A stretch of DNA of 45,486 bases from the IMG/VR virus record IMGVR_UViG_3300024518_003808, positions 1-45,486 of that record; one strand, written 5' to 3'. Origin of the DNA: a virus. The notes under the pieces were generated by a model. It saw nothing but the letters and a program-made list of their open reading frames with translations. It made no database searches and was not told the origin of the DNA. Position 1 is the stretch's first letter, and each line of letters begins with the position of its first letter. The position numbers and the translations under genes are program-made. Shown here in pieces: positions 1,142 through 39,194 of the stretch.

Positions 1142-1145
1142 GGTG

Positions 1146-5230: not shown

Positions 5231-5232
5231 AC

Positions 5233-6643: not shown

Positions 6644-6644
6644 C

Positions 6645-8475: not shown

Positions 8476-8480
8476 GCTGC

Positions 8481-8501
8481 CTCCGTGGGCGGTGCGCCCG
8501 G
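8481..8501 (-). promoter_or_regulatory. Leader hairpin preceding the integrase ribosome site
   Basis: On the minus strand, CCGGGCGCACCGCCCACGGAG forms GGGCG-CAC-CGCCC directly before ACGGAGG and the ATG. The same design with different stem bases occurs at 12144-12165, 13069-13089 and 13575-13595. Confidence 0.5.
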
Positions 8502-8512
8502 TATGGTGAAAA

Positions 8513-8533
8513 AGAATACCCCAACGGGTTGGG
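8513..8533 (-). promoter_or_regulatory. Operator/promoter of the integrase operon
   Basis: On the minus strand CCCAA-CCCG-TTGGG (8533-8520) is followed by one base and TATTCT (8518-8513). It matches 17 of 21 positions of the site before the early HTH gene (2063-2083). The palindrome would cover the -10/-35 spacer, so a repressor bound there would block initiation. The -35 is unclear. Confidence 0.5.
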
Positions 8534-8608
8534 AGGATGCCAGGGGGGGGCTCTCGCCCGTCTTTTGCGGCTATCCTCACGGCCTCCTTCCGATATAGCC
8601 GAGCGCGA

Positions 8609-8643
8609 GGGCGGCCCAGGGTCATGGTGTCCCTGGGCCGCCC
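8609..8643. terminator. Strong hairpin between accessory block and integrase
   Basis: GGGCGGCCCAGGG (8609-8621) and CCCTGGGCCGCCC (8631-8643) form a 13-bp perfect stem with a 9-nt loop. It follows the last gene of the leftward accessory block and precedes the separately promoted integrase operon, so it probably terminates the first. On the minus strand no T-run follows; on the plus strand GTCTTTC follows. Confidence 0.6.
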
Positions 8644-8648
8644 GTCTT

Positions 8649-8729
8649 TCAGCGGAGCTGCACCTCGAGCCAGGCGCACAGCACTCCGAAGGCCACTACC
8701 AGCGTGATCACGGTGACGGCTTGCCTCAT
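8649..8729 (-). CDS. 26-aa hydrophobic peptide
   Basis: ATG at 8729 overlaps the stop of the upstream gene as ATGA, giving MRQAVTVITLVVAFGVLCAW then LEVQLR and TGA. Residues ~5-20 form a single membrane helix. Coupled, GC-rich and immediately before the terminator hairpin, it ends the accessory operon. Function unknown. Confidence 0.5.
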   Translation of the reverse strand: MRQAVTVITLVVAFGVLCAWLEVQLR

Positions 8730-9139
8730 GCGAATTCCCGCTCGAGGGTGTCGGCGAGGGCCCGCAGCGACTCGGCCAGCGACAGGGCCACCTCGTCGAG
8801 ATCGCCGGTGATGGCGAGGATCGCGAGCGATCGATCGCTGTCGTCACGCGTCTTCAGCGCGTAGACGGGGAAGACCCCGTCACCGTCGGCGGTGCCGGCG
8901 AGCACCCCGGCGCCGCTCACGCCGCTCAGGAAGTTGATCTGGTGGCGCAGGGCGTAGTGCTCGACGTCCGTGCGTACCTGATCCTTCAGGAACGTGCTCC
9001 AGTCGCCGCTGCAGACGGCCTGGAGGACGCTGTCCTCGCCGATTGCGTAGCACGGGTCGCAGACCATCAGCATGCCGGCGTCAACGGCGACCTCGCCGAT
9101 TCGCGACCATCGCGGCTTCGTGTTCGTCGTGGTTCCCAT
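8726..9139 (-). CDS. DUF4241-like protein
   Basis: 137 aa from the ATG at 9139 (a GTG at 9142 gives a 4-nt overlap with the previous stop). It carries IGEVAVDAGMLMVCDPCY near residues 15-32 and GTADGDGVFPVYALKTRDD near 82-100. These match the pattern of DUF4241-type proteins (VDSGxLMIxDPCY ... GYGDGxYPVY). The biochemical role of the family is not known to me. Member of the coupled leftward accessory operon. Confidence 0.6.
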   Translation of the reverse strand: MGTTTNTKPRWSRIGEVAVDAGMLMVCDPCYAIGEDSVLQAVCSGDWSTFLKDQVRTDVEHYALRHQINFLSGVSGAGVLAGTADGDGVFPVYALKTRDDSDRSLAILAITGDLDEVALSLAESLRALADTLEREFA

Positions 9140-9356: not shown

Positions 9357-10766
9357 TTATGCGACCGAGCGGGTCGCTTCTGTGACGATTGCCTGGGCAA
9401 CCGGTGGTGAAACTGAATTCCCGACCATGCGGATCTGGTCGGTCTTCGTGAAGGGTGCGCCGGCGGAATCCTTCTCGAAGTGGTAGCCGGCGTCGAACCC
9501 CTGCGCGAGGTACAGCTCGCCGGGTTGCAGCATACGCATACCGATATCGACGATGCGATACGGCTCGCCATGTATCTCAACGAGGGCGAAGCGGTCCCGC
9601 GTGGTGATCGTGTGCAGCGGGGTTCGCAGCGACTGGCCGACGGTGCCGGCCGAGCCGTAGTACTTCATCAGAAACGCATGCACGTCGTGTCCGCGGCGCG
9701 GGTGCCCGGCCGGCGCGAGCAGCGCTGCGGTGAGCGCCTTCGTGTCGCGGGCGGTGATCGTGTGCAGCGGGTCGTCCAGGCGCTGCCCGATGGCGCCGAT
9801 GGCGCCGCCGTTGTGCTTCGCCACATAGGGGATGACGAGGTTTTTATCGTTCGTCGCGCAGATCGTCGCGAGCGGCTGAGTCAGCGGCTGCCCGCGGAAC
9901 AGGCCGGCGCCCTTCCCCTCGACCAGGCCGGCGCCGGTGCGCTTGCTGTAGTGGCCGTGCCGCACGATGTACGGCTCGCCGGCGCCCTGCACGAACTTCG
10001 CGATCCCCATCGCGATCCGCCGTTGAGTTGCCTCGGCGAGCGGGCGCTTGCGGTTGAAGATCGAGCGCACCGGGTGCGACCAGTCGATGCACTCCGCGGC
10101 GGTGCGGTACGGCAGCAGGCCCTCGCCGTGGGTCGGCGCGGGGAACGCCGGCGTGCGTCCGTCGCGCCGCGCGACCAGGAACCAGCGGTTGCGGGTGGTG
10201 GGTGCGCCGTAATCCGCCGCGCGCATGTCTTGCCAGTCGATGGTGTAGCCGAGGCTGCGGATCTTGCCGCACCACGCCCGGAACGTGACGCCGGCGCGTG
10301 ACTTGTCAGGGCGCCCGTCTTTTCCGAGCGGGCCCCACGTCTTGAACTCGGGCACGTTCTCGACGACCACCACGCGGGGCCGGACGGCCTCCATCCAGCG
10401 CGGGATCACGTCCGCGAGCCCGCGGATGTTCTTCTCTTTCGGACTGGTGCCCCGAGCCCGCGAGAAGTGGGTGCAATCGGGGCTGAACCAGACCAGGCCC
10501 ACGGGCAGGCCGGCGCAGGCCTCGCGCGGGTCGACCGACCAGATATCCTCGACGTAGTGGCGCGTCTCGGGGTGATTGGCTTCGTGCATCGCGATGGCGC
10601 GCGCGTCGTGGTTGATCGCGATATCGACCGGGCGACCTATCGCGGCCTCGATGCCGCTCGACGCGCCGCCGCCGCCGGCGAAATTGTCAATCACCAGCTC
10701 GCCGGGGAAAGCGCGCTCGCCCACCACCCGCAGAATCGGCGGCCTGTACGTGTGCCCGTCTTTCAT
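9357..10766 (-). CDS. DNA (cytosine-5) methyltransferase
   Basis: 469 aa. Motifs in order: I at 26-36 (VIDNFAGGGGASSG, SAM binding), IV with catalytic C98 (FSPDCTHFS, a PDC variant common in phage enzymes), VI with ENV at 136-138, VIII (QDMRAADYGAPTTRNRW), and X near the C-terminus (MVGNSVSPPVAQA). The region between VIII and X, the target-recognition part, contains repeated PL(A/H)TIxxxD units. It probably methylates phage DNA against host restriction; no cognate nuclease is present. The ATG at 10766 overlaps the SprT stop as ATGA. The first codons and an internal KDGR contain the repeated AAGACGGGC motif. Confidence 0.92.
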   Translation of the reverse strand: MKDGHTYRPPILRVVGERAFPGELVIDNFAGGGGASSGIEAAIGRPVDIAINHDARAIAMHEANHPETRHYVEDIWSVDPREACAGLPVGLVWFSPDCTHFSRARGTSPKEKNIRGLADVIPRWMEAVRPRVVVVENVPEFKTWGPLGKDGRPDKSRAGVTFRAWCGKIRSLGYTIDWQDMRAADYGAPTTRNRWFLVARRDGRTPAFPAPTHGEGLLPYRTAAECIDWSHPVRSIFNRKRPLAEATQRRIAMGIAKFVQGAGEPYIVRHGHYSKRTGAGLVEGKGAGLFRGQPLTQPLATICATNDKNLVIPYVAKHNGGAIGAIGQRLDDPLHTITARDTKALTAALLAPAGHPRRGHDVHAFLMKYYGSAGTVGQSLRTPLHTITTRDRFALVEIHGEPYRIVDIGMRMLQPGELYLAQGFDAGYHFEKDSAGAPFTKTDQIRMVGNSVSPPVAQAIVTEATRSVA

Positions 10767-11293
10767 GTCAATTCTCCTGGGGTCCGCAGACCCGGCCTGA
10801 ACGTGCCGCCGCATCCGATGTGGGTGTACGTGCGACGCGCCGCGAGGGCGCGTGCGCGGACCAACTCGAAGCCGCAGCGCTCGCAGGTCGCGACCACCCG
10901 CCGGGCGCTGCGCTTGCGGCGCTTGCGCTCGATGCCGAGCGCTGCGGCTTCGGCGACTGTTGCGGTTCGGCGTGCCGAGCCGCCGAGCTTGCGATGCCAC
11001 GCGCGCCACGCCGGGCCGTGGCCTGCGCCGCGACCCGCGGCGAGGTGAGCAACCTCATGGGTGACGGTGTCGCGGTATTGTTCGGCGTCGGCTGCGAGGG
11101 ACGGGTGCAGCTCGATGGCGATCACCAGCTCACCCGTCTTTCCGCGCTTCCAGCGCGCGCGCCCGAGCGAGGTCCGCAGCCGCGGGTTGACCCGCACGGG
11201 CGCGTCGAGCACGTCCGCGGTGAGCCTGTCGGTCGGGATCGCGAGCTGCGCGAGCACGTCGCGCACGCTCCCTAGCAGGTGTGCGCGCCTCAC
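10763..11293 (-). CDS. SprT-like zinc metalloprotease
   Basis: 176 aa from the GTG at 11293, coupled to the gene before it (GTGA). HEVAH at 79-83 with a third histidine at 92 (AGHGPAW) forms the SprT/Spartan active site. A C-terminal ribbon has C137, C140, H158 and C161. SprT/Spartan-type enzymes cut proteins crosslinked to DNA; in phages they accompany DNA-modification or replication genes. Adjacent to and coupled with the methyltransferase, it could remove trapped methyltransferase or other bound proteins. Between the domains is a basic stretch (ERKRRKRSARR). Confidence 0.85.
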   Translation of the reverse strand: MRRAHLLGSVRDVLAQLAIPTDRLTADVLDAPVRVNPRLRTSLGRARWKRGKTGELVIAIELHPSLAADAEQYRDTVTHEVAHLAAGRGAGHGPAWRAWHRKLGGSARRTATVAEAAALGIERKRRKRSARRVVATCERCGFELVRARALAARRTYTHIGCGGTFRPGLRTPGELT

Positions 11294-14420: not shown

Positions 14421-14743
14421 TGGGTGGCTTTGCCTTTTTGGAACTTCGAGCCACGGAATTCGGGTCGGACATCGCGATCGTCGAGGCCGATATGGTTGAG
14501 GAGGATGATGCTGGCGGCGATGCCGATCCCATCGGGGCCAAGGTTGACGGCTTGGCTTCGGCATTCGGCGAGGTAGGTGGCGAGGATGGCCCAGGCCGCG
14601 GTGGAGGTAGCGACATTCCAGGCGTCGGCGATAGTGCCGAGGTCGGCCCGTTCGCCTGGTCGGAGGCAGACGGAGACTCGTTCGGTGCGGTTGAGCTCGG
14701 GGAGCTGCGCGACGGAGCCGGAGCTGAGTTTTTGGCCTCGCAT
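14417..14743 (-). CDS. Ribbon-helix-helix-like DNA-binding protein
   Basis: 108 aa, ATG at 14743 with only a weak ribosome site. Residues ~20-65 (TERVSVCLRPGERADLGTIA, then DAWNVATSTAAWAILATYL) have the short strand and two amphipathic helices of RHH/MetJ-Arc regulators. The C-terminal part is helical with a basic end. Coupled to the XRE-type gene downstream. Its own start lies at the divergent regulatory region 14744-14808. Confidence 0.55.
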   Translation of the reverse strand: MRGQKLSSGSVAQLPELNRTERVSVCLRPGERADLGTIADAWNVATSTAAWAILATYLAECRSQAVNLGPDGIGIAASIILLNHIGLDDRDVRPEFRGSKFQKGKATQ

Positions 14744-14808
14744 TGGGATGGTGGAGGCTACCAGTCCCCAATGGCTTGGTCTACCTTGGGGCTAGAGAAG
14801 GAGTCGGC
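14744..14808. promoter_or_regulatory. Divergent regulatory region with CCCCAA / TTGGGG arms
   Basis: CCCCAA (14766-14771) and TTGGGG (14786-14791) form an inverted pair 14 bp apart, between the leftward regulator pair and the rightward gene at 14809. The half-sites equal those of the CCCAA-N4-TTGGG operators elsewhere, but with wider spacing. Confidence 0.4.
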
Positions 14809-15030
14809 ATGTCGATTTGGAAGGTACGTTTCAGGGAATTCGGGTCGGAGCATGTGGAAGCGGAGTCGATAGAGGCGGCATCGTCGAAGGCGCTGAGTGT
14901 GGTGTCGCTCGAGTTGGAGTTGGAGGTGGAGGTTAGGGAGGAGCCGGCGGTCCGCGAGGAGTTGCTGGAGGCCCGGGCCACGCTGGAGGTGGTGGGGGTG
15001 GAGTTGGTCGCTCCGCGGGTGATTCGGTGA
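14809..15030 (+). CDS. Small hypothetical protein
   Basis: 73 aa, ATG at 14809 behind AAGGAG (14797-14802). The sequence starts MSIWKVRFREFGSEHVEAES and continues with helices rich in Glu, Leu and Val (LELELEVEVREEPAVREELL). Compact acidic alpha-beta protein, not recognised. First gene rightward from the divergent control region and likely expressed under the neighbouring regulators. Confidence 0.6.
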   Translation: MSIWKVRFREFGSEHVEAESIEAASSKALSVVSLELELEVEVREEPAVREELLEARATLEVVGVELVAPRVIR

Positions 15031-15111
15031 GATGCGGTGCCACCGTGGCGCGTATGATCGCCGGGGATACGGCCACGCGGTGAATCGCCTCGACCCGTGT
15101 CGGGCGTGCGC

Positions 15112-15129
15112 TGCGACCGATCGGTCGCA
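15112..15129. promoter_or_regulatory. 18-bp perfect palindrome
   Basis: TGCGACCGATCGGTCGCA lies about 100 bp before the exported-protein gene in an otherwise non-coding stretch (15031-15229). It is a candidate operator for a dimeric regulator. Confidence 0.5.
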
Positions 15130-15229
15130 TCGTCGCATCATCTCGCGTGGCGACGCCGGCCAGCTCCCCGAGGTACGACCGGCACTGTGGCATCGGCTCG
15201 GGACGTTTCCGTCAGACAGCGAGGTCGCG

Positions 15230-15691
15230 ATGGCACCGCGACGGTGGCTCCATCGGCTGCGGGTGGGTTCGCTGCCGCCACTGCTCGCGCTTTTGCTGCT
15301 TGCGGTCGATGCCAGCGCGCAAGGGACCGCCGAGACGGTGCTGCTGCGGTGGGTGGATCCGAGTCCCGATCCGGGGGCGACTGGCTTCGTCGTCCACCTG
15401 GAGGTGGGTGAGGTGGTGACCGATCTGGCGTATGCGGTCGGCGATGGCTCGATGAGTGAAGACGGTCGCGTCTACAGCGTGTTCGTGGGGATAGGGCCCG
15501 GGGAGACGCACGTTTCGGTATCCGCGACTGCGGCCGAGGGTGTCTTCGCGACGACCTGGAGCGAGGGATCCGAGGTACGGACGTACCAGCCGACGACGCT
15601 GTGCAGCCGCGCGGACTTCACCGCGGACGGCATCGTCGGGGGGCCCGATTTCGGGATTTTTGCGGGGGTATTCGGCCGGATTTGCGACTGA
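15230..15691 (+). CDS. Exported protein with FN3-like domain and dockerin-like tail (accessory gene)
   Basis: 153 aa, ATG at 15230 preceded by GAGG. Residues 1-31 are a clear signal peptide (basic start, PPLLALLLLAVDA core, cleavage after SA-Q). Residues ~35-115 form a beta-sandwich-like domain (ETVLLRWVDPSPDPGATGF ... ETHVSVSATAAEG). The end, CSRADFTADGIVGGPDFGIF then AGVFGRIC, is a single dockerin/EF-hand-like calcium loop flanked by cysteines. Such proteins act outside the cytoplasm. Here the gene is isolated between control regions, so it is likely a lysogenic-conversion or accessory gene rather than a virion part. Confidence 0.7.
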   Translation: MAPRRWLHRLRVGSLPPLLALLLLAVDASAQGTAETVLLRWVDPSPDPGATGFVVHLEVGEVVTDLAYAVGDGSMSEDGRVYSVFVGIGPGETHVSVSATAAEGVFATTWSEGSEVRTYQPTTLCSRADFTADGIVGGPDFGIFAGVFGRICD

Positions 15692-15971
15692 TCGAGTTGC
15701 GAACGCAAGTTCGTGCCGTGGTGTCGGGCTGCCGCCCGAGGAAACTGGAAGAGGGAGAGGGCTTTGAGGCGGGGGGTGAGGGAGCTGGGTGGTGCGGATT
15801 GGCTCGGTGTTCGGGGTGAGCCGCCCTTCCCGCCGATTGGGGCCCGTCGGGGCGTTCCCTCTCCGTTTCGTACTCAGAGGTCGGAGCGGCCGGACGCACG
15901 CGATAGCAACGAGATCGGTGTTTGACAACATTGGAAACGTCGCGCTGGGCTGGTTGGGGTGAGAGGGCAAA
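15692..15971. other. Non-coding stretch before the late genes
   Basis: No credible gene. It holds a TTGACA at 15922-15927, a good -35, but no clear -10 at 16-18 bp. As the only sizeable gap before the long rightward gene run, it is the best place for the late promoter. Confidence 0.35.
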
Positions 15972-16211
15972 ATGACTAGTGGTCGGTGCGGGAAGCCTCC
16001 GAACATGGACGATATCGGCCCGGATCCGCTGGTGGAGGAGTGGAAGAGCGACCGTGGCGCCGAGGAGCGGCACTACTTTTTGAGCCGCGGCGGTGCGGAG
16101 AGCTTCGAGCAGTATCTGTTCGGAGTGAACCCGCAGCTATTCAGTGACCCGGAGATCAGCAGTATCAAGGATTACCTGCTCGCGATCCTTCGCGAGCGCA
16201 ACAAGGGGGGG
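15972..16211 (+). CDS. Upstream part of a frame-conflicted gene
   Basis: The ATG at 15972 follows GAGAGGG. The frame gives about 80 natural residues (DPLVEEWKSDRGAEERHYFL ... FEQYLFGVNPQLF ... SIKDYLLAILRERNKGG). At a run of seven G (16205-16211) the protein-like signal moves to the +1 frame, which starts EVAQKQKTIILMN. The original frame has no stop and would run as Arg/Gly/His-rich nonsense into the endolysin. Either the two halves are one protein made by slippage, the G-run is miscounted, or the second half starts at the GTG 16216. Function unknown. Confidence 0.55.
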
Positions 16212-16215
16212 CGAG

Positions 16216-16473
16216 GTGGCCCAGAAGCAGAAGACGATCATCTTGATGAACATGAGAAGGATCCAGCCGGAGACGAAGGAGGCGCTGCTCGACTGCCAGG
16301 ACGGCGACATCATCGGGGTGCTGCCCGAGGAGCTCGACTCGATCATGCCGATCACGTTCTACGGCGAGTCGATGGCGGAGGCGGTGAGCGCGAGTCCCGT
16401 GCCGTCGAAGGGTCGCGCGGGCCGCACGCCGGAGGGCAAGAAGGCGAGTCGGACGGCGAGCCTGCTGGAGTGA
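16216..16473 (+). CDS. Downstream part of the frame-conflicted gene
   Basis: From the GTG at 16216 the frame gives 85 residues: VAQKQKTIILMNMRRIQPET, KEALLDCQDGDIIGVLPEEL, a short beta stretch (SIMPITFYGES) and a basic tail (GRAGRTPEGKKASRT). The G-run just upstream could serve as a ribosome site. The stop TGA at 16471-16473 overlaps the endolysin GTG. Not recognised. Confidence 0.6.
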   Translation: MAQKQKTIILMNMRRIQPETKEALLDCQDGDIIGVLPEELDSIMPITFYGESMAEAVSASPVPSKGRAGRTPEGKKASRTASLLE

Positions 16474-16970
16474 ATGTCACGGCGTATGGCGTGGCCGAGC
16501 GCTTCATCGGGATCAAGGAAGTCCCTGGCACTGAGCACAACCCACAAATCTTAGCGATGCTGCGGCTCGATGACGTGTGGCCGGAAGGCGACGAAGTGCC
16601 CTGGTGCTCGGCGTTTGTGAACTGGGTCGCATGGTTGTTGCGGCTTCGCCGCAGCGAGAGTCTGCGCGCTCGAAGCTGGCTCGAGGTGGGCGACGGGATC
16701 CCGCTCCACGCCGCCCGGCCGGGTTTTGATGTGGTGGTGCTCAAGCGTGGGGGCGGTGATCAACCGGGCGCCGAGGTGCTCGACGCTCCGGGTCATGTGG
16801 GATTCTTTTCGAGTGCCGAGTTCAGCATCCACGGCGGGCTTCCGACCGCGGTCGATCTGCTGGGCGGGAACCAGGGCGACCGGGTTTCGATTGCGAGGTA
16901 TCCTGCGGATCGGATTCTCGGGGTGCGGAGGTTGCATCTTGACTATGGGAGGTTGCACTATGGGTCATAA
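16470..16970 (+). CDS. Endolysin, TIGR02594-type cysteine peptidase/amidase
   Basis: 166 aa from the GTG at 16470, coupled by GTGA. It follows the TIGR02594 (NlpC/P60-related) pattern from end to end: AERFIGIKEVPGTEHNPQI, then DEVPWCSAFVNW with catalytic C46, ARSWLEVGDGIP, GFDVVVLKRG, GHVGFF with H109, and LGGNQGDRVSI. Members cleave peptidoglycan peptide bonds for host lysis. No signal peptide is present, so the holin must release it. It lies before the terminase genes, far from the holin/spanin cluster at 44.3-45.4 kb, although on a circle both belong to the late transcript. Confidence 0.85.
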   Translation: MNVTAYGVAERFIGIKEVPGTEHNPQILAMLRLDDVWPEGDEVPWCSAFVNWVAWLLRLRRSESLRARSWLEVGDGIPLHAARPGFDVVVLKRGGGDQPGAEVLDAPGHVGFFSSAEFSIHGGLPTAVDLLGGNQGDRVSIARYPADRILGVRRLHLDYGRLHYGS

Positions 16971-17394
16971 GAGCGGCCTGCGACACGCAGGTGCGGTTGG
17001 CAAGCCTGCGGCTCGCGACGTTGGCGCCGAGCTGCGTGAGGGCACGGCCCTCGACATCGCGGAGCTGTGCGAACGCCACGCCGAGCGGAGCGTGAAGACG
17101 CTGGTCGACGTGCAGCGCAGCCGGAAGGCCACAGCCACAGCCAAGGTCGCCGCGGCGAACTCGATCCTCGATCGCGTTGCCGGCCGTCCGGCCACCCAGG
17201 AGCGCGAGCAGAACGAGGGCGGGCTCACGATCGTGGTGAATCAGCTCTACCTCGATGGCAAGCCGGAGGTGGTCGAGATCAAGCCCGTCGCGACCGAGGC
17301 GGAGATTGTGGCGGATGATCGGCCGAGCGCATCCGAGATCGACCTGCACGGCGATGGGGCGTCGATCGTCGTCAAAAGCCCTCTTGCCCGCTAG
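16960..17394 (+). CDS. Probable small terminase subunit
   Basis: 144 aa, ATG at 16960 with GGGAGG at 16947-16952, overlapping the endolysin end by 11 nt. The helical segment ALDIAELCERHAERSVKTLV, then RSRKATATAKVAAANSILDR and VAGRP, is typical of small terminase or terminase-associated phage proteins. Position shortly before the large subunit supports this. No N-terminal HTH is evident beyond the central helices. The C-terminal half is acidic and beta-like (VVNQLYLDGKPEVVEIKPV). Confidence 0.6.
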   Translation: MGHKSGLRHAGAVGKPAARDVGAELREGTALDIAELCERHAERSVKTLVDVQRSRKATATAKVAAANSILDRVAGRPATQEREQNEGGLTIVVNQLYLDGKPEVVEIKPVATEAEIVADDRPSASEIDLHGDGASIVVKSPLAR

Positions 17395-17424
17395 CCTTGG
17401 GCGGGTGATGAGGAGGACATTCTG

Positions 17425-17664
17425 GTGAATGGCACGGAACCGATGAAGAAGGGCAAGGCCGGCAAGCGCGCTTCGAGGCGTCCGACCGGCATGGGCAAGT
17501 CGGCCGACTCGCCGCCGCGCAGCATGGAGAAGTCTCTGAACGCGGACAACTCCGAGGAGGGCTTCGCCCCGTTCGCGAAGCCGAGCGGCGCCTTTGAGGC
17601 CGTCGACCCCGACGGCGGATACGCCGGCAACGTGGTCGGGCCGCAGAGCAAGCCGGTCGTCTGA
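17425..17664 (+). CDS. Small basic/disordered hypothetical protein
   Basis: 79 aa from the GTG at 17425, after GAGGAGGAC. The N-terminal half is Lys/Arg/Ser-rich (MKKGKAGKRASRRPTGMG); the second half is Pro/Gly/Asp-rich. No fold is visible. The next ATG overlaps its stop (TGATG). Confidence 0.55.
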   Translation: MNGTEPMKKGKAGKRASRRPTGMGKSADSPPRSMEKSLNADNSEEGFAPFAKPSGAFEAVDPDGGYAGNVVGPQSKPVV

Positions 17665-29926: not shown

Positions 29927-30882
29927 TCAGCGTCAATAGGTCGAAGTCAAGGTCGAAGACCGCCCCGTGGTCCGCGCAGCAGCCGTATCTCAAGCAGATC
30001 TACTCGCAGGCGCAGGATCTCTACGGCCAGGGCCCGTATCAATACTACGGCGGGTCGACTGTGGCGGGATTCGATCCGGCGAGCCAAGGGGCCTTTGGGC
30101 GTGCGCTCAATCGCAGCGCCGCGGGTTCCGAGGGCGTGCGTCAGGCGCAGGACGAGCAGATGCGGACCAGCCGCGGCGACTACCTCGATCCCGAGTCGAA
30201 CCCGTGGCTGACGAAGTCCTACGACCTCGCGGCCCGCGATATGGGCCGGAATTACTACGGACAGGTGAACGCGCTCGGCTCGCGGATGGAGGGCGCCGGC
30301 CGGACGCCAGGCACCAGTCAGCAGGATGTGCTGCGAGAGGGCTACGCCCGCGGCCTGGGGCAGCTCGGCGCCGACATCTACGGCGGTGCCTATCAGTTTG
30401 AGCGTGGGCAGCAGGCGCGTGCAGGCGGGATGGCTGGTCAGCTCGCGGACTACGACTACCGCGACATCGATGCGGCGCGCTCGGTCGGAATGCAGCGCGA
30501 GCAGCAGGCCCAGGCACAACTGAGCGATCTGGTGGCTCGATTCGAGCAGGGGCAGCGTGGCGGCGCCGAGAAACTTGCCGAGTTCTACCAGATGCTGGGC
30601 GGCCAGCCGGTCATGGAGAGCAACGCCAAATCGTCGAGCTTCGGCATGGGAATTATGAGCTGCTGGGCCGCGGCCGAGCTGTTCGGCTGGTTCACGCCGA
30701 AGTTCATGGCAGCGAGGCACTGGCTCCTCGAGCAATGGGAAGGCGACCAGGCCGATGCGTTCCGCGCCTTCTACGAGGCGAGTGGGTACGACCTCGCCCG
30801 AGAGATCGCGTGCGATGCGGAAGTGCGGGCCCAGTGGCTGCCGTTCTTCGAGTGGGCCGCCGCCGAAGGGGAGGCTGCCTAA
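29923..30882 (+). CDS. Probable ejection (internal virion) protein
   Basis: 319 aa, coupled by ATGA. Tyr/Gly/Gln-rich N-terminus (YLKQIYSQAQDLYGQGPYQY), a GFDPASQGAFGRALN motif found in podovirus internal virion proteins, long alanine/glutamine helices (RSVGMQREQQAQAQLSDLVA), and a separate aromatic C-terminal domain (ESNAKSSSFGMGIMSCWAAA ... ARHWLLEQWEGDQADAFRAF). Probably leaves the capsid with the DNA to form part of the channel. Confidence 0.65.
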   Translation: MISVNRSKSRSKTAPWSAQQPYLKQIYSQAQDLYGQGPYQYYGGSTVAGFDPASQGAFGRALNRSAAGSEGVRQAQDEQMRTSRGDYLDPESNPWLTKSYDLAARDMGRNYYGQVNALGSRMEGAGRTPGTSQQDVLREGYARGLGQLGADIYGGAYQFERGQQARAGGMAGQLADYDYRDIDAARSVGMQREQQAQAQLSDLVARFEQGQRGGAEKLAEFYQMLGGQPVMESNAKSSSFGMGIMSCWAAAELFGWFTPKFMAARHWLLEQWEGDQADAFRAFYEASGYDLAREIACDAEVRAQWLPFFEWAAAEGEAA

Positions 30883-32846
30883 TGGTGTGGTGGATGCTCG
30901 GCGCCCTCGGGAGTGGCCTCGGTGGCACCCTTGCTAAGGGTGCATTGGGGTCGGCGCTTGGTGGTGGGGGCAAGAAAGGCTCGTCCGCCCCCACCGATGG
31001 CGGCGGCATGATCAACCCGATGCAGCAGGCCGGCAATGCGATTGGGGAATTCGCTGGCGGTGCTGGCGGTGCGATATCCGATCGCGCTGGTGGCATGATG
31101 GCATCATACGGGCTCGATCCGATCACGAAGGAAGACCCCCGGGGTCGCGCAAGGCGGATCGTGGAAGGCCAGATGGATCGCAGCCTCCAGCAGCCTTACG
31201 AGGCGCCGGTTCAGTCCGCTCGCCCGCTGCCGATCTCTCCGGGCCCGGCGCAGATGCCGCGCGATCGGCCGCTGGGCAGGGAGCGCTTCCAGCGGCGACC
31301 CGGGTCGCGCTCTCTGATGGGCCAGATCGGGCGTCCGCGTGGCTTCGATGCCGGCTACTTCCCGCACGGCGGCGAGTGGCACGCGCCGATGCTGCCGCGC
31401 GAGGAGCTCGACGAGACTGGGCATATGCCCGTGACGCTCAACGTCACGCCGGGCGAAACGGTGAGGGTCGAGCCGCCGCCGGGCTCGGATGCCCAGCGCG
31501 AAGCCATCACTGGGTTTGGTACCGAGCTGCGCGGCGCCGACTTCCACCGCGATTACGGGTCGCTCTTCATGGAGCCAAGAGAAATCAGCCGCGCCCGGGC
31601 GCTGGGGGCTGCCGCCTTCTCCGACAATCCGTTCCTCGGGTACGAACGCTCGGTGGCCTCCCAGGAGTCAAACCTCCTAGCCGGGCAGCAGCGAGCGGTG
31701 GCAAGGGAGATCGCCCAGAGGTTCAGCGAGTCGGGCCCAGACGGGCCATCGAATCGAGATCTGCAGATATTCAACTCCGCGCGTCGCGCGGTCGGGCTCA
31801 CTGCCGCCAGAATCCCCAGCCTGGACGCCTACACCGCATTCGGCGAGAATGAGCCGCTTGGTACTTACGACCAAAAGTTTCGAGAGAATTTTGGCGGCGG
31901 GTACACCGCGGGGGAGAAACGGCCCGTCAAGGATCCAAGGAATCCGTGGACATCGACATCAGCCACGGAGCAACGGCGCCAGCTGCAGGCGCCTGGCTAT
32001 CGGTTAATCGCTAGGAACCTGACCCCCTTGAGGCTCTCTCAACTCTACGATGACCGAGAGGCTGGCGTCCGCGAAGCCATCAGTGAAATCAATGACTTCA
32101 TGTCGTACTTCGATAATCCTGCGGAATTCGAGAACATCCTGCGGGGAGGATACAACGACGTAAATCCAGACGATCCCGTGCCGCTTATCCCGATGGAGGG
32201 TGGCGAAGGCACGGGCGTCGGCGGCCCGCAGCGTGGCGCGGATACCCCGGCTAGCTCCGAGGCCGAACTCGCCGCTGCTGTGGGGGGGCTTACCACCGCG
32301 ACCGAGGTGCCGCGCTCGGCAGCGTGGGAAGCGTTGAGGGTTCCCCATGCGGATCCGCCGCTCGCGGAATCCTTCACCGACATAGCGGAGACGGACGCGC
32401 CATCGCGCGCCGCTGACTTGCCAATGCCGCGAGGAAGGTCTGCCATGCCATGGCAGGCCGCCGGGATGGGTGAGTGGTGGAACCGTTGGTCGGAGCAGGA
32501 GGCAGAGAGAGTACGGTCTGCGTGGCGGCCGGGAGGCTTGGATCACCTGGGCATCGGTGGACCCTCGGAAGAGGACAGGCAGGCCAGAATGGATAGGAAC
32601 AGAGCGTTCCTATCGCGGATAGGTCAGCCCTTTGAGGACTCAAGGGGTAGCCTGTCGGACATCGGCGGATATGACGCGGAAGGTGACCGGCGCAGGCTGG
32701 AGGACTGGAAGCGCATCCCCGGGAACATCCGGGGCTTCTTGGAGTCCGAGGCGGAGAAAGTACGGTCTGCGTGGGGGCCAGGAGGCTTGGATCACCTGGG
32801 CATCGGTGGACCCGACAGACCCATCAGCGGCGGGCGACACTTTTGA
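30882..32846 (+). CDS. Large ejection/internal virion protein with C-terminal repeat
   Basis: 654 aa from the ATG at 30882. It has a glycine-rich hydrophobic start (LGALGSGLGGTLAKGALGSA), typical of membrane-interacting ejection proteins. The middle is Pro/Arg-rich (PLPISPGPAQMPRDRPLGRE) and contains the MTLNVTPGETVRVEPPP-like beta stretch also seen in tape-measure-type ends. The C-terminus carries two copies of RSAWxPGGLDHLGIGGP from a 54-bp DNA repeat. Followed within 30 nt by the 1376-aa ejection protein. Confidence 0.6.
   Translation: MVWWMLGALGSGLGGTLAKGALGSALGGGGKKGSSAPTDGGGMINPMQQAGNAIGEFAGGAGGAISDRAGGMMASYGLDPITKEDPRGRARRIVEGQMDRSLQQPYEAPVQSARPLPISPGPAQMPRDRPLGRERFQRRPGSRSLMGQIGRPRGFDAGYFPHGGEWHAPMLPREELDETGHMPVTLNVTPGETVRVEPPPGSDAQREAITGFGTELRGADFHRDYGSLFMEPREISRARALGAAAFSDNPFLGYERSVASQESNLLAGQQRAVAREIAQRFSESGPDGPSNRDLQIFNSARRAVGLTAARIPSLDAYTAFGENEPLGTYDQKFRENFGGGYTAGEKRPVKDPRNPWTSTSATEQRRQLQAPGYRLIARNLTPLRLSQLYDDREAGVREAISEINDFMSYFDNPAEFENILRGGYNDVNPDDPVPLIPMEGGEGTGVGGPQRGADTPASSEAELAAAVGGLTTATEVPRSAAWEALRVPHADPPLAESFTDIAETDAPSRAADLPMPRGRSAMPWQAAGMGEWWNRWSEQEAERVRSAWRPGGLDHLGIGGPSEEDRQARMDRNRAFLSRIGQPFEDSRGSLSDIGGYDAEGDRRRLEDWKRIPGNIRGFLESEAEKVRSAWGPGGLDHLGIGGPDRPISGGRHF
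32511..32813 (+). repeat. 54-bp direct repeat (32511-32564 and 32760-32813)
   Basis: The copies differ at about two positions. Each encodes VRSAWxPGGLDHLGIGGP near the C-terminus of the preceding ejection protein. The close identity indicates a recent in-frame duplication of about 249 bp or a repeat kept by recombination. Confidence 0.85.
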
Positions 32847-32872: not shown

Positions 32873-35800
32873 GTGGCGGGACTCGACGAGATCCTCGCCG
32901 GCGAGGACTTCCTCGGGCTGGAGGAGTCCGAGCAGATCGCTCGCCTCCAGGGCGAGAACGACACGTTCCGCGCGGCCTACGCGAAGTCGCCTGAGAAGAG
33001 CACGGAGTTCCTCCGTGGCAAGCTCGGCCGCGGCGGGCGCGAGACGGCATTCGACGACATCATCGCGAGGGCGTCGGTGAAGCACCGCATCGACCCCAGG
33101 CTGCTCAAGGCGCAGATCCAGGCCGAGTCGGGCTTTGACCCGGACGCCGTCTCCCCTGCGGGCGCGCAGGGCTTGATGCAGATCATGCCGGGCACCCAGA
33201 AAGAGTTGGGTATCACCAACCCGTTCGATGCCGAGCAGTCGATCATGGGGGGCGCGAGCTACCTGCGGAAGCAGAGGGATCGCTTCGGTCGCTGGGACCA
33301 CGCCCTGGCCGCCTACAACGCCGGCGGGAGAACGGTCGCGGAATACGAGGGGATCCCGCCCTACGAGGAAACCCAGAATTACGTCCGCAGAATCATGGCT
33401 GACTGGGAGTCGCAGGCGCCAGCCGCGAGCACCGCGACTGCTGCGCCGCGAGAGGCTGTGAAGCCGCCGCCCAATCTGCCGCCGCCGGCAGGCGAGGAGT
33501 CTCCGGCTGGCTCGAGTGCTGCCGAGCGAGCGACGCGCCAGGCTGGCTACGGCTTCGCGGAATCCTTCACCGACACGGCACAGCTCATCGGACACGGCGC
33601 TAACTGGGTGCTGGGCTCCATGGGGCTGCCTGAGACGGACATTCCCGAGGCGATCGGGGCTTGGGAGGAGGAGAACCTACCGGAGGCCGTCACGGCCGAA
33701 GGGCGCGTCGCTCGTCTCACGGGCTACGGTGCGGGGTTTGGCCTCCAGGCCTTCGGCGTCGGAACCCTTGCCGCGGCCTCGAAGGTGCCGTGGCTTGCGC
33801 GCGCCGCGCGCTTCATCACCGCGGGGCCCGCCACCGAGCTCGCGGCCGGCGCGGCCGGCGGAACGGCGCAAGGTCTTGCGGCCGAGCACACCGACAGCAC
33901 GATTGCCCAGATCGGCGCCGGGATCGCCGGTGCGGTGACAGCCGGTGGCCTGGTCGAGGCCGGGGTCCGAAAGTACGGTCGCGCGGCACTGATCGGTGAG
34001 GTGGCAGAGCAGGAGGCCGGGATCGCTGCGGCCCGAGCGTCGCGCGCCGCTGCCCCGAACGCCCCCACCCCCCGCGCCGCCGAGGGTGCGCGTATCCCCT
34101 GGTCTACCCGCGAGGGTACGCCAGTACAGCGAGCAGAAGCCTTTGACGCATTGCCGGGCGATGCGGAGGTTACGTTATTCCACGCAACGTCTGATGCCAA
34201 CGCCGCAAACCTCATAGGTGGCGGCAAAGCAGTACCCCAACGCCAAGGGCGTGGTATCGAAGCGATTGACGATGGGATTTACGTTGGCACAGATCCGATT
34301 TCGGTTGAGGGGATGGGGCCGCGAATACTTGCCGTGACAGTCAAGAAATCGCAGGTTTCCCCCTCTTCGGAATTCCTAAGGACATCGCCAGACGGGACTG
34401 CTGGTCGCGCACTTGTACAAGGTGCAGCAACGGGCGGCGTTGTGCGTGGCAAACCGATTCGCGTGGAAGATGTTACCGATGCAGGGCGATACGCTACGGC
34501 TGCCGAAGCCCCCACCCCCCGCGCCGCCGGTGCTACTCGCGTCATCAACCCGCTGGACCGCGAGGGGCAGCACGCAGCCTTCGATCGCCTGACTACCGAG
34601 CAGGCCAAGCGGATGGATGCGCCGCCGGAAGCGGTGAAGCGGGCGACGGAATTCCATGGCATGAAGATCATGGACGAGATGACCGAGGGAGTCGCCAAGA
34701 CGATCGACCTCGAAACCACGACCAACCTGATGAACGCCTACAAGCAGTTCCTGAAGGGTGCGCCGGCGAGCTTCCTGCGGGTCAACCCTGGCAAGAGCGT
34801 GACGCTCAACGTCCGCGAGGCGATCCAATCGGGCACGATGAATCTGGACGAGATCAAGCCGATCCTCGATGCGAATGGCATCACGCTGGAAGAGTTCGTC
34901 ATGGGATTCCAGTCGACCACGTCGAACGCCGGTCGAATCCTCCAGCAGATGTCGGCGGCGCGGAAGGCCGAGAAGCGCATGCTGCGAGATATTGAGGCGA
35001 GCGGCGGGGCATCGGAGGCCGACTTCAAGAGGCTACGCGAGCTTGAAGGTGTGGACATCGAGCCGATGGGCTTTTGGCGCCGGCTGGAAAACGTCCGTCG
35101 CGGGATGCTCGTCACCCAGTTGTCGACTGCGATGCGGAACGCAGAGACGCAGGTAGCTAACCTGACCGTGAACACCATGGGCCAAATCATGGAAGGCGCG
35201 ATGCACCAAGTCATCCGGGGCGGAGCTCGGGCCGTCGGCAAGGAGTGGACCCCGGCTCGCTCGGCTGACGCTCTGGGACCGCTGTCGCGGATCTTCGTAT
35301 CGCCCCTTAAAACGAAGCGCCAAGTCGACGAGATGATGAAGATGGAGTCCTTTACGGATGACATGCATCGGCTCTTCTTCCGGTCTGCCTCGGAGGCCGA
35401 CGGGATCCCGGCACTGAAGCAGACGGGCGTGCTGAGTGGCTTCGAGAACACGGCGCGCATCCTGAATACGGCCAACCGATTTCAGGAGTACACGATTCGG
35501 CGCGCTGTCTTCGCATCGGAACTCGACCGCTCGCTCGCTGCGTCAGGCAAGCAGCTTGCCGACCTCGAGTCCGCCGGGAAACTCGGGACCATCGACCGCG
35601 CACACGTCAAGCAGGCAGTCGATCGCGCTCTCGAAATGACCTGGGGTAAGGAATTCAATCGCAATGCCATGGGAGCCGAGGGCTTCGCGGGTAAATTCAT
35701 CGACCTCGTCAATCACACGGGGGTCGGGCCGGTCCGCCTGACGCAGGTGATTCCGTTCCCCCGCTTTATGATGAACGCGATCAAGTGGCAGTACCAGCAC

Positions 35801-37003
35801 TCCCCGCTCGGGCTGATGAAGATGCTCTACCGGAAGTCAGAGTGGGAGAAGGTCGCGCAGGGCGACGTCTCCACGATCACGAAGGCATCGCTGGGGACCG
35901 GGATGCTTATGACCGCCCACCAGATCAGAGACTCCGAGTACGCCGGAGAGAGGTGGTACGAGATCCGCCCCGGGGCAGAGCAGGCCGAGTGGTTGAACGA
36001 GAACCTCAACATCGACATGTTCGAGCGAGACGAAGCCGGGAACATCGTGATGGACGAGGTCACCGGCAAGCCGAATATCGGCACCTTCGACACTCGGCCG
36101 TTCAACCCGTTTGCGAGCTATCTGTTCGCGGCAGACGTTGCCAAGCGGATTGGCGACGGCACGCTCAACCGGATGAGCACGCGCGATATTGCGATGGGCT
36201 TCCTCGCGGTGAACATGCGCGCCGGCGCGGGGCTCTTCATCCTCGACAAGGCACTCGACGACTGGACGCAAGGCCTCCAAGTCGATGAGAACCTGCCGCC
36301 GGAAGAGAAGGCCCAGGCCCAGGCCGAGGCGTTCGGACGGGGAGTGGCCGGCTACGCGGGGGCGGCATGGTCTGGGATGCTGGTCCCATTCCAGCAGCTC
36401 AACGATGCATTCGCGAGCTTCGACCAGGCGATGGGCGGGGATCCGCGCGCCGTCAAGGATGCGAATGCAGACCCGATGTTCGGCCAGTTCCGCACGAAGC
36501 TCGCTGCCTTTGGCGCCGCCGAGGGGCTGCCGGACCGGGAACTCCCGACTCGCGCAGCGCCTCCGGTCAACTTGGCCCCGGGCGCCCGGCAGTTGACCGG
36601 CGCGACGATTCGCGGCCCGAAGAACGCCGCCGAGAAGGAACTCGACCGACTCCAATTCTCGCGTGGCGAGATCCTCCCGGGGTCGGGCAACGACGCCTGG
36701 GACCGAATCGTGACGAAGCACATGGGGCCAGCCTTCGAGCGCTACGTTGTCCCGAGGGTGTCGAGCGGCAGATACCAACGCGCGAACGACGCGGCGAAGT
36801 CGCAGTTGATGCGTGGCTATCTGAAGCGCGCCCGCGACGTTGCGAGGCGAAAGGCAAGGCGTGAGGATCGTGCGCTTGGCCGCGAGGTAGACGAGATGAG
36901 GAGGCCGCGTCGCGAGCGGCGCGCCAAGGCGGCGCGCGAGAAGGGCCGGGCAGCAGCTCGCGAGGCCTACTTGATTAGCCAGGGAGTAATCGACGGTGGC
37001 TGA
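32873..37003 (+). CDS. Giant ejection protein: lytic transglycosylase, ART-like domain and long helical body
   Basis: 1376 aa from the GTG at 32873, after AGGTGAG. Residues ~62-165 are a soluble lytic transglycosylase: catalytic E85 in QAESGFDPDAVSP, GLMQIMPGTQ, and AAYNAGG near 147-152; this opens peptidoglycan during DNA entry. Residues ~215-385 are hydrophobic and Gly/Ala-rich, fitting membrane passage. Residues ~425-545 form an ADP-ribosyltransferase-like unit (VTLFHATS with H437, DDGIYVGTDP with Y470, RILAVTVKKSQ) enclosed by identical APTPRAA linkers. The remaining ~830 residues are helical with a basic end (RARDVARRKARREDRALGRE), as in T7 gp16-like or polyvalent phage proteins. The ART assignment is from pattern only. 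Confidence 0.75.
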   Translation: MAGLDEILAGEDFLGLEESEQIARLQGENDTFRAAYAKSPEKSTEFLRGKLGRGGRETAFDDIIARASVKHRIDPRLLKAQIQAESGFDPDAVSPAGAQGLMQIMPGTQKELGITNPFDAEQSIMGGASYLRKQRDRFGRWDHALAAYNAGGRTVAEYEGIPPYEETQNYVRRIMADWESQAPAASTATAAPREAVKPPPNLPPPAGEESPAGSSAAERATRQAGYGFAESFTDTAQLIGHGANWVLGSMGLPETDIPEAIGAWEEENLPEAVTAEGRVARLTGYGAGFGLQAFGVGTLAAASKVPWLARAARFITAGPATELAAGAAGGTAQGLAAEHTDSTIAQIGAGIAGAVTAGGLVEAGVRKYGRAALIGEVAEQEAGIAAARASRAAAPNAPTPRAAEGARIPWSTREGTPVQRAEAFDALPGDAEVTLFHATSDANAANLIGGGKAVPQRQGRGIEAIDDGIYVGTDPISVEGMGPRILAVTVKKSQVSPSSEFLRTSPDGTAGRALVQGAATGGVVRGKPIRVEDVTDAGRYATAAEAPTPRAAGATRVINPLDREGQHAAFDRLTTEQAKRMDAPPEAVKRATEFHGMKIMDEMTEGVAKTIDLETTTNLMNAYKQFLKGAPASFLRVNPGKSVTLNVREAIQSGTMNLDEIKPILDANGITLEEFVMGFQSTTSNAGRILQQMSAARKAEKRMLRDIEASGGASEADFKRLRELEGVDIEPMGFWRRLENVRRGMLVTQLSTAMRNAETQVANLTVNTMGQIMEGAMHQVIRGGARAVGKEWTPARSADALGPLSRIFVSPLKTKRQVDEMMKMESFTDDMHRLFFRSASEADGIPALKQTGVLSGFENTARILNTANRFQEYTIRRAVFASELDRSLAASGKQLADLESAGKLGTIDRAHVKQAVDRALEMTWGKEFNRNAMGAEGFAGKFIDLVNHTGVGPVRLTQVIPFPRFMMNAIKWQYQHSPLGLMKMLYRKSEWEKVAQGDVSTITKASLGTGMLMTAHQIRDSEYAGERWYEIRPGAEQAEWLNENLNIDMFERDEAGNIVMDEVTGKPNIGTFDTRPFNPFASYLFAADVAKRIGDGTLNRMSTRDIAMGFLAVNMRAGAGLFILDKALDDWTQGLQVDENLPPEEKAQAQAEAFGRGVAGYAGAAWSGMLVPFQQLNDAFASFDQAMGGDPRAVKDANADPMFGQFRTKLAAFGAAEGLPDRELPTRAAPPVNLAPGARQLTGATIRGPKNAAEKELDRLQFSRGEILPGSGNDAWDRIVTKHMGPAFERYVVPRVSSGRYQRANDAAKSQLMRGYLKRARDVARRKARREDRALGREVDEMRRPRRERRAKAAREKGRAAAREAYLISQGVIDGG
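34061..34529 (+). repeat. 22-bp identical direct repeats flanking the ART-like segment
   Basis: 34061-34082 and 34508-34529 are identical over 22 bases and both encode APTPRAA. The 425 bp between encode the ART-like domain and look less GC-rich than the flanking gene (by eye, not computed). The structure suggests acquisition or possible loss of the domain by recombination at the repeats, in frame: repeat-to-repeat distance is 447 bp, a multiple of three. Confidence 0.85.
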
Positions 37004-39194
37004 GATCAAGGACTGGTCGACCGTTGCGGCGTCCAACGTCGATACCCTGCCGGCGGCCGGCTGGCCGGAAGGCATGGCGCGAAGCGATGTAAACAACGTC
37101 GGTCGCGAGATGATGGCCGTGCTCCGGCGGCAGTGGGACCAGCCGGACTGGCGCGAACTCGTCAGCGACTACACCGTGACCGAGTCCGGCGGTCTGGTCA
37201 ACATCGGTGCGCTGGATGCCACGGCACTGTTCCCGGTGGGCACGAAGGTCAAGATCAGCAACGCCGGGGCTGATGTCTACGGCTTCGTCACCGTCTCGGC
37301 CTTCGGCGACCCAGATACCCAGCTCACCATCGGGTTCTGGAGCGGTGCGACATCGGCGGTACCGGCGACCGCGAACGGGATCTCCGCGTTCTACCTGGGC
37401 GGCAGCGAGAGCCTTGGGCGCAACGCGTTCAACGACGATACGCCGCCGTTCGTGTTCCCAGACGGCAGAACCGCTGCCGCGATCAATGCAGCCATCGTAT
37501 CGGCGCAATCGACGGGCCAGATTGTCCAACTCGACGCCGTGCAGTACGACTTGGAAGCAGCCATTTCGATCCCTGCCCCAGGGAACGTGACGATTCAGGG
37601 ACTAGGCATCGGCGTGACGATTCTGGTGCTCGCGGCCGGCGCGGACGTGACGATGCTGAACATCGCGGATGACTGTGCGGACGTGACGATTCGCGATATC
37701 CAGTTCAACGGCAACTCCGTCAATCAGACTGCCGGCAACGGAATCGTCGGGAACGACAACCTGACGCGCATTGTGCTGCACAACCTACTCTTCTACCGAG
37801 TGTGGGGCGAAGCGGTTGTCTTCGCGGCCACGGACGTCACGCCGACGTCACAGTCCTATCGCGACTGCTCGATGGATGGCATCTACGTCCAGCAGCCAGG
37901 TGGAAATGGAATCCGCATCCTCGACCCGAACGGTGTCAACCGTGGATTCTCGGTGACGAATTGCGCTGCGTTTGACCCGGGTCACGCCGATGGTGACGGG
38001 TCTTCTGGCAGTTTTGCGTTCAACATCGACTCGAAGAGCGTGGCGATGAGCAACATCGACGTGGTGCTGACCGCATCGACGGGAGCGACGGCCACCGGGA
38101 TCGTCTTCGGGGCTGTGACCTCTGGCGCTGGCGGCGCTGGCGGCGGTCGGCTCTCGCAACTGACGAACTTCAAGATCGAGGGAGCGAAATCGGACGCAAA
38201 CGGGCTCAGCATCCTCGGGAGATACGTCCAGGTATCCAATGGTGTCGTCAACATGTCGGGAGCTTCCGCACTGCCGTTGCTAATCGACGGGCTTGCCGCA
38301 TCCCCGGAAGAGGCGGGTGACATCATCGTGAGCGGCGTGCAGTTCCACCAAGGGCTGCGCTGCCAGATCAACAACGACGCAATGCGAGTCTCGCTGTCGG
38401 ACTGCCGGTTCAGCAACCAGACCGGTGTCAGCCTGCAATCCGCCGGGATTGATCTCACGATTTCCAACTGCGTGTTCGACGAGTCGACCGGAGATGGCGT
38501 AGTCCTCCAGGTCAACGGAAACGATGCAGTCATCCACGGCTGCGTATTCCGCGACATTGGTGGAGATGGCGTGCAGATCGAAAGCGGCGCGTCCCGGGCG
38601 ACCGTCACGGGGAATCACTTCGATACGGTCACAGGAAAGGGTGTCGACATCCAAGCCGGTGCGGTGGATACGATCTGCGCGAACAATACGTTCGTGGCTG
38701 TAGGTGGCACGGACGTTACGGACGCCGGCACGACCTCGAAGCTCTACCCCGATAACTTGCTCAACGTGACGGACGCTGCCGGGGAAAACATTCGCGGCCC
38801 CGATCTGTTCATCGAAGGCGCGGCCTTTACATGGACTAGCGCCGAAACAGTCTATCCGAGCTTTGAGGCAGTTGTATTCCCGATGGGTGGCGCCAACGGG
38901 TCGAGGCGGTACCGAATAAATCTCTCGCTGTCCGGCGGTGCCGGGGCCGGCACCAACGTATACGATATCTCGATCGGACCGCTCGGCACAATCGCAGACC
39001 CGAATGCTCGTTCAGCAACGATGCCATCGTCGGCATTAGTTAATGCGTCCTTCCTTTGGACGCCTGCCGCAGGGGACAAACTCACGGTTTCGATAGATGG
39101 TACTAATACAAACCCTGGCCTTAACTTCCTCTGGGCATACGACGAGGCTCTGACACGAAACACATATTTATGGATCAGGTACATAGATGGCTAA
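36996..39194 (+). CDS. Tailspike/fibre with beta-helix
   Basis: 732 aa from the GTG at 36996, overlapping the previous stop by 8 nt. Residues 1-55 (GWPEGMARSDVNNVGREMMA) are a virion-attachment module shared with the next protein. Residues ~150-610 have repeated right-handed beta-helix rungs (ADVTIRDIQFNGNSVNQTAG, GVQFHQGLRCQINNDAMRVS, RATVTGNHFDTVTGKGVDIQ). The C-terminus is a beta domain (YRINLSLSGGAGAGTNVYDI). The pectate-lyase-like fold is usual for spikes that bind or cut surface polysaccharide; the catalytic residues cannot be assigned. Confidence 0.75.
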   Translation: MAEIKDWSTVAASNVDTLPAAGWPEGMARSDVNNVGREMMAVLRRQWDQPDWRELVSDYTVTESGGLVNIGALDATALFPVGTKVKISNAGADVYGFVTVSAFGDPDTQLTIGFWSGATSAVPATANGISAFYLGGSESLGRNAFNDDTPPFVFPDGRTAAAINAAIVSAQSTGQIVQLDAVQYDLEAAISIPAPGNVTIQGLGIGVTILVLAAGADVTMLNIADDCADVTIRDIQFNGNSVNQTAGNGIVGNDNLTRIVLHNLLFYRVWGEAVVFAATDVTPTSQSYRDCSMDGIYVQQPGGNGIRILDPNGVNRGFSVTNCAAFDPGHADGDGSSGSFAFNIDSKSVAMSNIDVVLTASTGATATGIVFGAVTSGAGGAGGGRLSQLTNFKIEGAKSDANGLSILGRYVQVSNGVVNMSGASALPLLIDGLAASPEEAGDIIVSGVQFHQGLRCQINNDAMRVSLSDCRFSNQTGVSLQSAGIDLTISNCVFDESTGDGVVLQVNGNDAVIHGCVFRDIGGDGVQIESGASRATVTGNHFDTVTGKGVDIQAGAVDTICANNTFVAVGGTDVTDAGTTSKLYPDNLLNVTDAAGENIRGPDLFIEGAAFTWTSAETVYPSFEAVVFPMGGANGSRRYRINLSLSGGAGAGTNVYDISIGPLGTIADPNARSATMPSSALVNASFLWTPAAGDKLTVSIDGTNTNPGLNFLWAYDEALTRNTYLWIRYIDG

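Follow-up and report, generated by a model that had tools for sequence, protein, structure and literature searches.

The DNA analysed here (the window) is a whole IMG/VR virus record of 45,486 bp, whose portal protein is about 32% identical to the portals of podoviruses that infect Pseudomonas, for example tf and PaP4. After the terminase, portal, head and DNA-ejection genes lies a gene (32873–37003, plus strand, GTG start) which encodes a 1376-amino acid protein of the ejection or virion type. As an earlier note on this DNA had claimed, the protein is headed by a lytic transglycosylase (SLT) domain (33062–33376, plus strand, residues 64–168, PF01464, E 8.3e-26), and it matches PHROGs families of internal virion proteins and endolysins. 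No LPD domain is found in it by Pfam, and the locus search gave no relative of the whole protein.

The gene contains two copies of a 22-mer, GCCCCCACCCCCCGCGCCGCCG, at 34061–34082 and 34508–34529 (plus strand), which are 100% identical. Their starts are 447 bp apart, that is 149 codons, and both lie in the frame of the 32873–37003 ORF, where they encode APTPRAA (residues 397–403 and 546–552); the earlier note had correctly described them as identical, 447 bp apart and in frame. No further copy with up to 3 mismatches is found in the whole window, and dinucleotide shuffles give a mean of 0.02. Another repeat, of 73 bp, occurs at 32492–32564 and 32741–32813 (90% identical, 249 bp apart, direct orientation), in the ORF directly upstream of this gene (30735–32846), and encodes RVRSAWxPGGLDHLGIGGP.

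The segment enclosed by the 22-mers, which we call the cassette, spans 34083–34507 (plus strand, 425 bp, residues ~404–545 of the acceptor protein). It encodes LFHATS, DDGIYVGTDP and RILAVTVKKSQ, as had been read from the sequence before. Its GC content is 58.6%, compared to 65.8% in the rest of the ORF, 70.4% in the 5' flank and 61.9% in the 3' flank, and is the lowest among 742 sampled 425-nt stretches of the ORF, which confirms the lower GC previously noticed between the repeats. Genome-wide, the cassette ranks 156 of 1803 and is not extreme. Its GC3 is 50%, versus 84% on the 5' side and 64% on the 3' side.

The C-terminal part of the acceptor (34530–37003, plus strand) can be aligned to cassette-free homologues from phages CRP-345, HMO-2011, CRP-1 and CRP-13. 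In blastp, residues ~550–1210 are 23–26% identical to the large proteins of HMO-2011 and the Roseobacter CRP phages, and the CRP-13 alignment starts at residue 550, inside or just after the second repeat. According to Pfam these homologues have no transglycosylase domain, and the alignment shows in them no counterpart of the cassette or of the repeat. At only ~25% identity, these homologues do not amount to a clean empty site for the window gene. The SLT head, the position after the structural genes and this distant homology to podovirus large proteins (HMO-2011) suggest that the window protein would be delivered with the phage genome.

A search of viral contigs with the cassette returned two relatives, L002 and L003. 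The L002 copy is 87% identical in amino acids and 81.3% in DNA over 459 nt, and its homology with the window begins at the repeat in both sequences. The L003 copy is 80% identical in amino acids and 80.8% in DNA over 437 nt, and here the homology ends inside the repeat in both. The proteins that host these copies are unrelated to the window protein, and the two contigs have no other DNA similarity to the window. L002 holds the repeat twice, around a different domain. In L003, positions 5467–6900 encode three tandem ADP-ribosyltransferase (ART)-like domains within one 2063-amino acid protein, with a full or partial linker at each border (CCCGCGCCGAAGCC). A tblastn search of the cassette in phages and plasmids found nothing.

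These comparisons bear on the simplest alternative, in which the segment would be an ordinary integral domain and the repeats a local duplication or a chance product of GC-rich DNA. The protein does have many Pro/Ala-rich stretches, and the DNA 5' of the cassette exceeds 70% GC. However, only 0.02 copies are expected in the window with 3 mismatches allowed, the same DNA edges flank the same domain in unrelated phages, and homologues exist without the segment. As far as domain mobility is concerned, L002, L003 and the homology comparisons between the carriers described below refute this reading, which we consider hardly credible.

Viral contigs were scanned for the exact word CCCACCCCCCGCGCCG and genome contigs for an extended form of it. 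Next to effector-like domains, roughly a dozen independent long ORFs have this word, or its 3' half, in frame as PTPRA. That the repeat itself is common to unrelated phages had not been foreseen in the earlier note. Most of these carriers were found with the linker as bait, and all of them are metagenomic or MAG contigs; no convincing copy of the linker was found in 50,697 phage records.

The domains edged by the linker include several ARTs, a C5 DNA methylase, metallopeptidase-like and GNAT-like domains, and unknowns. Pfam identifies the C5 DNA methylase in carriers G005, G006, G007 and G012 (in the last, exactly between two linker copies), LPD38 (PF18857) in G002, G009, G011 and G012, SLT in G011, and weak ART-PolyVal matches in G002, G003, G006 and G007. 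SLT is present in two linker carriers. Two linker copies of G009 enclose a domain which, on visual inspection of its HEFGH motif, is metallopeptidase-like. The scan with the 3' half of the linker revealed a GNAT-like cassette, likewise identified visually, with a linker at either edge in L398 and L436. L318 has a bona fide ART: an ART-PolyVal domain (PF18760, 33.8 bits for a cut-off of 31.2) lies exactly between two exact linker copies 396 bp apart. The contig of L318 and L385 (PCCY01000001.1, Roseobacter MAG NP10) is related to the window phage, with 66–73% DNA identity in the terminase, portal and head genes; the linker-bearing gene of L318 occupies the genome place that corresponds to that of the window gene and has a different acceptor sequence.

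Many exact 16-mer matches in viral contigs were rejected as chance (out of frame, antisense or in unrelated genes), as were most of the 75 matches in genome contigs (Streptomyces, Actinomadura and others), which occur in GC-rich DNA, and most matches of the 3'-half scan (antisense or in unrelated frames). Approximate matches in Mycobacterium and Arthrobacter phages were also discarded (E of 0.09 or more, mostly antisense), including that of an Arthrobacter MuF-ART, which reads DAPIPGAAEA, and so was an approximate match in Tunturi_5, which reads VPVPPAPKPPPPP. The isolated cyanophage Dfl-JY45 of Dolichospermum (L448, PP438435.1) encodes at 66403–73566 a large protein that includes a relative of the L318 ART, 42% identical to it. 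A linker-like word occurs only elsewhere in that genome, at chance level.

Comparison of the carriers with one another shows both different cassettes in one acceptor and one cassette in different acceptors. G002, G009 and G012 share an N-terminus and an LPD38 C-terminus, between which G002 has three ART-like domains, G009 the metallopeptidase-like domain and G012 the C5 methylase. Conversely, G006, G008 and G010 are more than 99.7% identical to G007 over ~5.3–6.8 kb downstream of the linker and unrelated to it upstream. G004 and G006 have a common backbone (mostly 86–96%), and the acceptor N-terminus that they share loses homology 8 nt before the G006 linker. From the linker onward, L398 and L436, with their GNAT-like cassette, are 99.3% identical over 3.2 kb, and the upstream sequences are different; in L427, identity is 95% up to the linker, after which the sequence differs, the downstream neighbour of the GNAT-like cassette having been exchanged. 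G003 and G011 also share a cassette in different acceptors. In G015 (L386, MAG NP36 contig 31), the ORF at 14485–17442 contains a linker-bounded array A-B-A' of unknown domains, in which A and A' are 95% identical over 366 nt and B differs.

The coincidence between linkers and homology endpoints was quantified for DNA-homologous segments of at least 150 nt and at least 74% identity inside these genes. Of the 13 internal endpoints, ten are no more than 15 nt away from a linker copy, against a mean of 0.54 when the linker positions are circularly shifted (p<5e-5). Some of these endpoints depend on one another, as the same cassette is involved in three of the pairs. An eleventh endpoint, the start of the G003/G011 homology, coincides with a partial linker copy in G011 and was not counted. 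Most contigs in this test were selected because they contain the linker and not by their breakpoints; the cassette alone led to L002 and L003.

Such a pattern might be mimicked by false junctions, if the assembly of metagenomes had fused unrelated genes at a C-rich word common to them; every carrier is an assembled metagenome or MAG, and the word is short and GC-rich. This is highly improbable: three separate records (G006, G008 and G010) have one and the same junction, the reading frame is kept at both edges of many cassettes, and cassette pairs that are 81–89% identical cannot arise by mis-joining. The proposal of the earlier note that the segment is a swappable cassette is thus strongly supported by the occurrence of the same domain in unrelated proteins, by homology which ends at the repeat, and by the many other cassettes bounded by the same DNA word.

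Over 22 copies of the linker, the conserved core reads CCCACCCCCCGCGCCG and then NNG; two continuations are common, GCCGAAGCCCCC and GCCGCCGAGGGTGC, and identity often extends into neighbouring codons (matches of 24–30 nt). It could be proposed that this sequence is kept for the protein, PTPRA being a flexible inter-domain linker or a site at which the injected polyprotein would be cleaved into its separate effectors, with a DNA likeness that results from codon bias. The peptide is indeed Pro/Ala-rich and always located between domains, and it has been proposed that polyvalent proteins are processed by embedded zincin-like peptidases (PMC5512222). But the codon usage of each gene gives the exact PTPRA codons with a probability of just 0.0003–0.009 per copy, and the copies which did not serve as bait (G002 955, G006 357, G009 611 and G011 1277) all use CCC CGC GCC; the exception is the copy at residue 360 of G012, which uses synonymous codons. 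When PTPRAEA is scanned in any codons, the polyvalent-type proteins among the matches listed all have the exact DNA and the other encodings are found only in unrelated proteins. The extension of the identity into neighbouring codons and the position of the homology breakpoints at the linker also argue against a role of the peptide, which we regard as an improbable explanation. As the choice of codons is nearly invariant, conservation of the linker is, on sequence grounds, mainly at the DNA level.

Our preferred reading, to which we assign a probability of roughly 70%, is that the cassette is an exchangeable effector unit, that the repeats are a DNA-conserved linker common to unrelated phages, that exchange would proceed by annealing, and that the unit is ART-like and would be injected into the host. 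When two phage genomes meet in one cell, their identical linkers of 16–30 bp, nearly all GC, would serve as recombination homology. Annealing recombinases could plausibly act on identical stretches of this length and base composition, and the most likely route would be single-strand annealing by a protein of the RecT/Red-beta type. A domain could in this way be swapped, gained, lost or duplicated without a break of the reading frame. In the window phage, the transglycosylase-headed protein would then carry the ART-like cassette into the host, where it may modify a host target early in infection.

The window encodes a RecT-like ssDNA annealing protein (8–1600, minus strand; phrog_561, E 3.6e-24; PF03837, E 6.9e-5, below the cut-off), which is a candidate for the recombinase and whose part in exchange is putative. 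This family was not found in the other carrier records, most of which are fragments, and a search for annealing proteins of the ERF type found none. The window also encodes a tyrosine integrase (7918–8847, minus strand, PF00589, E 1.6e-28), which makes a temperate lifestyle of the phage probable. Among its other genes are a DNA methyltransferase (9357–11009, minus strand, phrog_116, E 8e-93), a transcriptional regulator with a metallo-protease-like part, possibly of an ImmA-type repressor system (5215–6450, plus strand, PHROGs 1373, 2439 and 87), and a right-handed beta-helix protein (36996–39194, plus strand, PF13229), a probable tailspike with a host-binding or depolymerase role.

The linker might instead be the site of a dedicated site-specific recombinase or mobile element, in a manner similar to integrons without attC hairpins. 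The fixed core with its sharp edges, the arrays with duplicated units and the tyrosine integrase of the window phage (7969–8454, minus strand) would fit such an arrangement. However, PF00589 is present in only one of 11 records, that of the window phage, and in none of the 10 other carriers, many of them fragments; no serine resolvase was found in the 11 records searched; no palindrome or half-site symmetry is evident on reading the core; and no element other than the domain itself was seen between the linker copies. Homologous or annealing exchange is favoured over a dedicated site-specific enzyme, which seems improbable. That recombination takes place at the linker is what we infer from these sequence comparisons.

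The nature of the enclosed domain is a separate question. The ART-PolyVal family (PF18760) is characterised by a His in strand 1, a Tyr in strand 2 and an Asp in strand 5. The window cassette has the His in LFHATS (34175–34192, plus strand; His 437, codon 34181–34183), which aligns to VYHGTS of the L318 ART-PolyVal cassette, the Tyr in DDGIYVGTDP (34271–34300, plus strand; Tyr 470, codon 34280–34282), which hhalign pairs with GIFFTRD and GLYVTIDP of other ART cassettes, and a third strand in RILAVTV; the strands are assigned from low-confidence models. In the third motif of the H-Y-D clade, TGGVV aligns to YDGYI and GIDGVY, with a G that replaces the D, in a region where the alignment is weak. 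The window cassette is 28% identical to the L318 ART in a MAFFT alignment, in which its third motif has GG in place of DG. When the three cassettes (window, L002 and L003) are compared by hhalign to five ART-PolyVal-like domains, the match is marginal (probability 18%, P 0.0014) and pairs LFHATS with YHGTS, GIYVGTDP with GIFFTRD and RILAVTV with RVLEAKV, in the correct order. One hundred column shuffles reach at most 1.4%, whereas true ARTs score 89–97%.

Pfam gives no match at E≤5 for any of these three cassettes, and the window cassette has none among NCBIfam families and PDB sequences. The uncharacterised phrog_6170 (118 amino acids) matches the L003 copy with an E of 1.6e-5, the L002 copy with 6.9e-4 and the window copy with 0.003, over the H-Y-strand-3 block only; the window cassette is nearer to this family than to ART-PolyVal. 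AlphaFold models of the cassette have a pLDDT of 37 (3 aligned sequences) and 45 (6 aligned sequences). For the second, low-confidence model, Foldseek gives a best PDB E of 8.2, which is not significant, and in the viral library an annotated ART ranks second, but with an E of 1.0.

Based on the motifs and the marginal profile match, the window cassette is probably ART-like, and an ART activity is a candidate function. The claim of an ART-like domain in the earlier note stands as regards the H and Y motifs, their order and the marginal hhalign match; it is not backed by a Pfam or PDB match, and the Asp position reads G. A domain that is as mobile as described but is not an ART, be it a different small fold or an ART relative that has lost catalytic activity, is an unlikely yet serious alternative, which concerns this part of the interpretation alone and not mobility. 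The missing Pfam match at E 5, the low pLDDT of both models, the non-significant Foldseek result and the H-Y-D Asp aligned to the G of TGGVV all point in that direction. Against it, hhalign matches the H, Y and strand-3 motifs, in the right order, to those of ART cassettes, well above the shuffles, and ART-PolyVal-like cassettes that can be recognised as such adjoin the domain in other carriers.

The polyvalent proteins of phages and conjugative elements were defined in 2017 by Iyer et al. (PMC5512222), who explained their architectures as accretions of domains taken from solo modules; neither the word linker nor the word shuffling appears in the main text. Like these very large multidomain phage proteins, which combine ART, methylase, peptidase, GNAT, transglycosylase and LPD domains, the proteins described here have several such domains, and the window protein joins two unlike activities, SLT and that presumed for the cassette, in 1376 amino acids. 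The DNA linker shared in frame at cassette edges is outside the description of PMC5512222. In polymorphic toxins, including phage MuF toxins, effector domains recombine beside a conserved delivery part (PMC3482391, PMC5576092). The exchange of effectors beside a conserved delivery part is the same here, but the toxin that they exchange is C-terminal, whereas the present unit is internal (residues 404–545 of 1376), has a border on either side and can occur in arrays.

Integron cassettes also form modular arrays bounded by a recurring DNA site; in the present case, however, no attC-like hairpin is evident, there is no shared integrase, and the units are in-frame domains rather than genes. In mosaic phage genomes, short conserved boundary sequences are found at module borders and are taken to promote recombination. 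They mainly mark gene borders in related phages, whereas the linker is a single word placed within reading frames, where domains meet, and the phages that have it are otherwise unrelated in DNA. No earlier description of the linker was found in the literature text searched, a search outside which most subscription papers lie. Polyvalent proteins and phage mosaicism are known, and exchangeable cassettes bounded by a DNA linker in polyvalent proteins appear to be a variation on them.

A broader and more tentative reading, which we hold to be possible rather than probable, is that phages share a dedicated system for in-frame domain exchange, in which the linker would be neutral as protein, favoured as a recombination substrate, and a common adaptor for any effector and any injected protein. 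Persistence of the linker may then result from selection for exchange rather than from a protein role. The linker is in the top 0.04–0.6% of its contigs for G-quadruplex propensity, which is partly implied by its C-richness, and its G-rich strand might stall replication and so promote exchange.

The linker provides a concrete, searchable DNA signature for the assembly of phage-injected multi-effector proteins, and the segments that it bounds nominate unknown domains as candidate effectors, for example the A and B units of G015. The linker also bears on the question of how domains pass between the proteins of unrelated phages with the reading frame intact, and suggests a plug-and-play swapping of the weapons that phages use against host cells.
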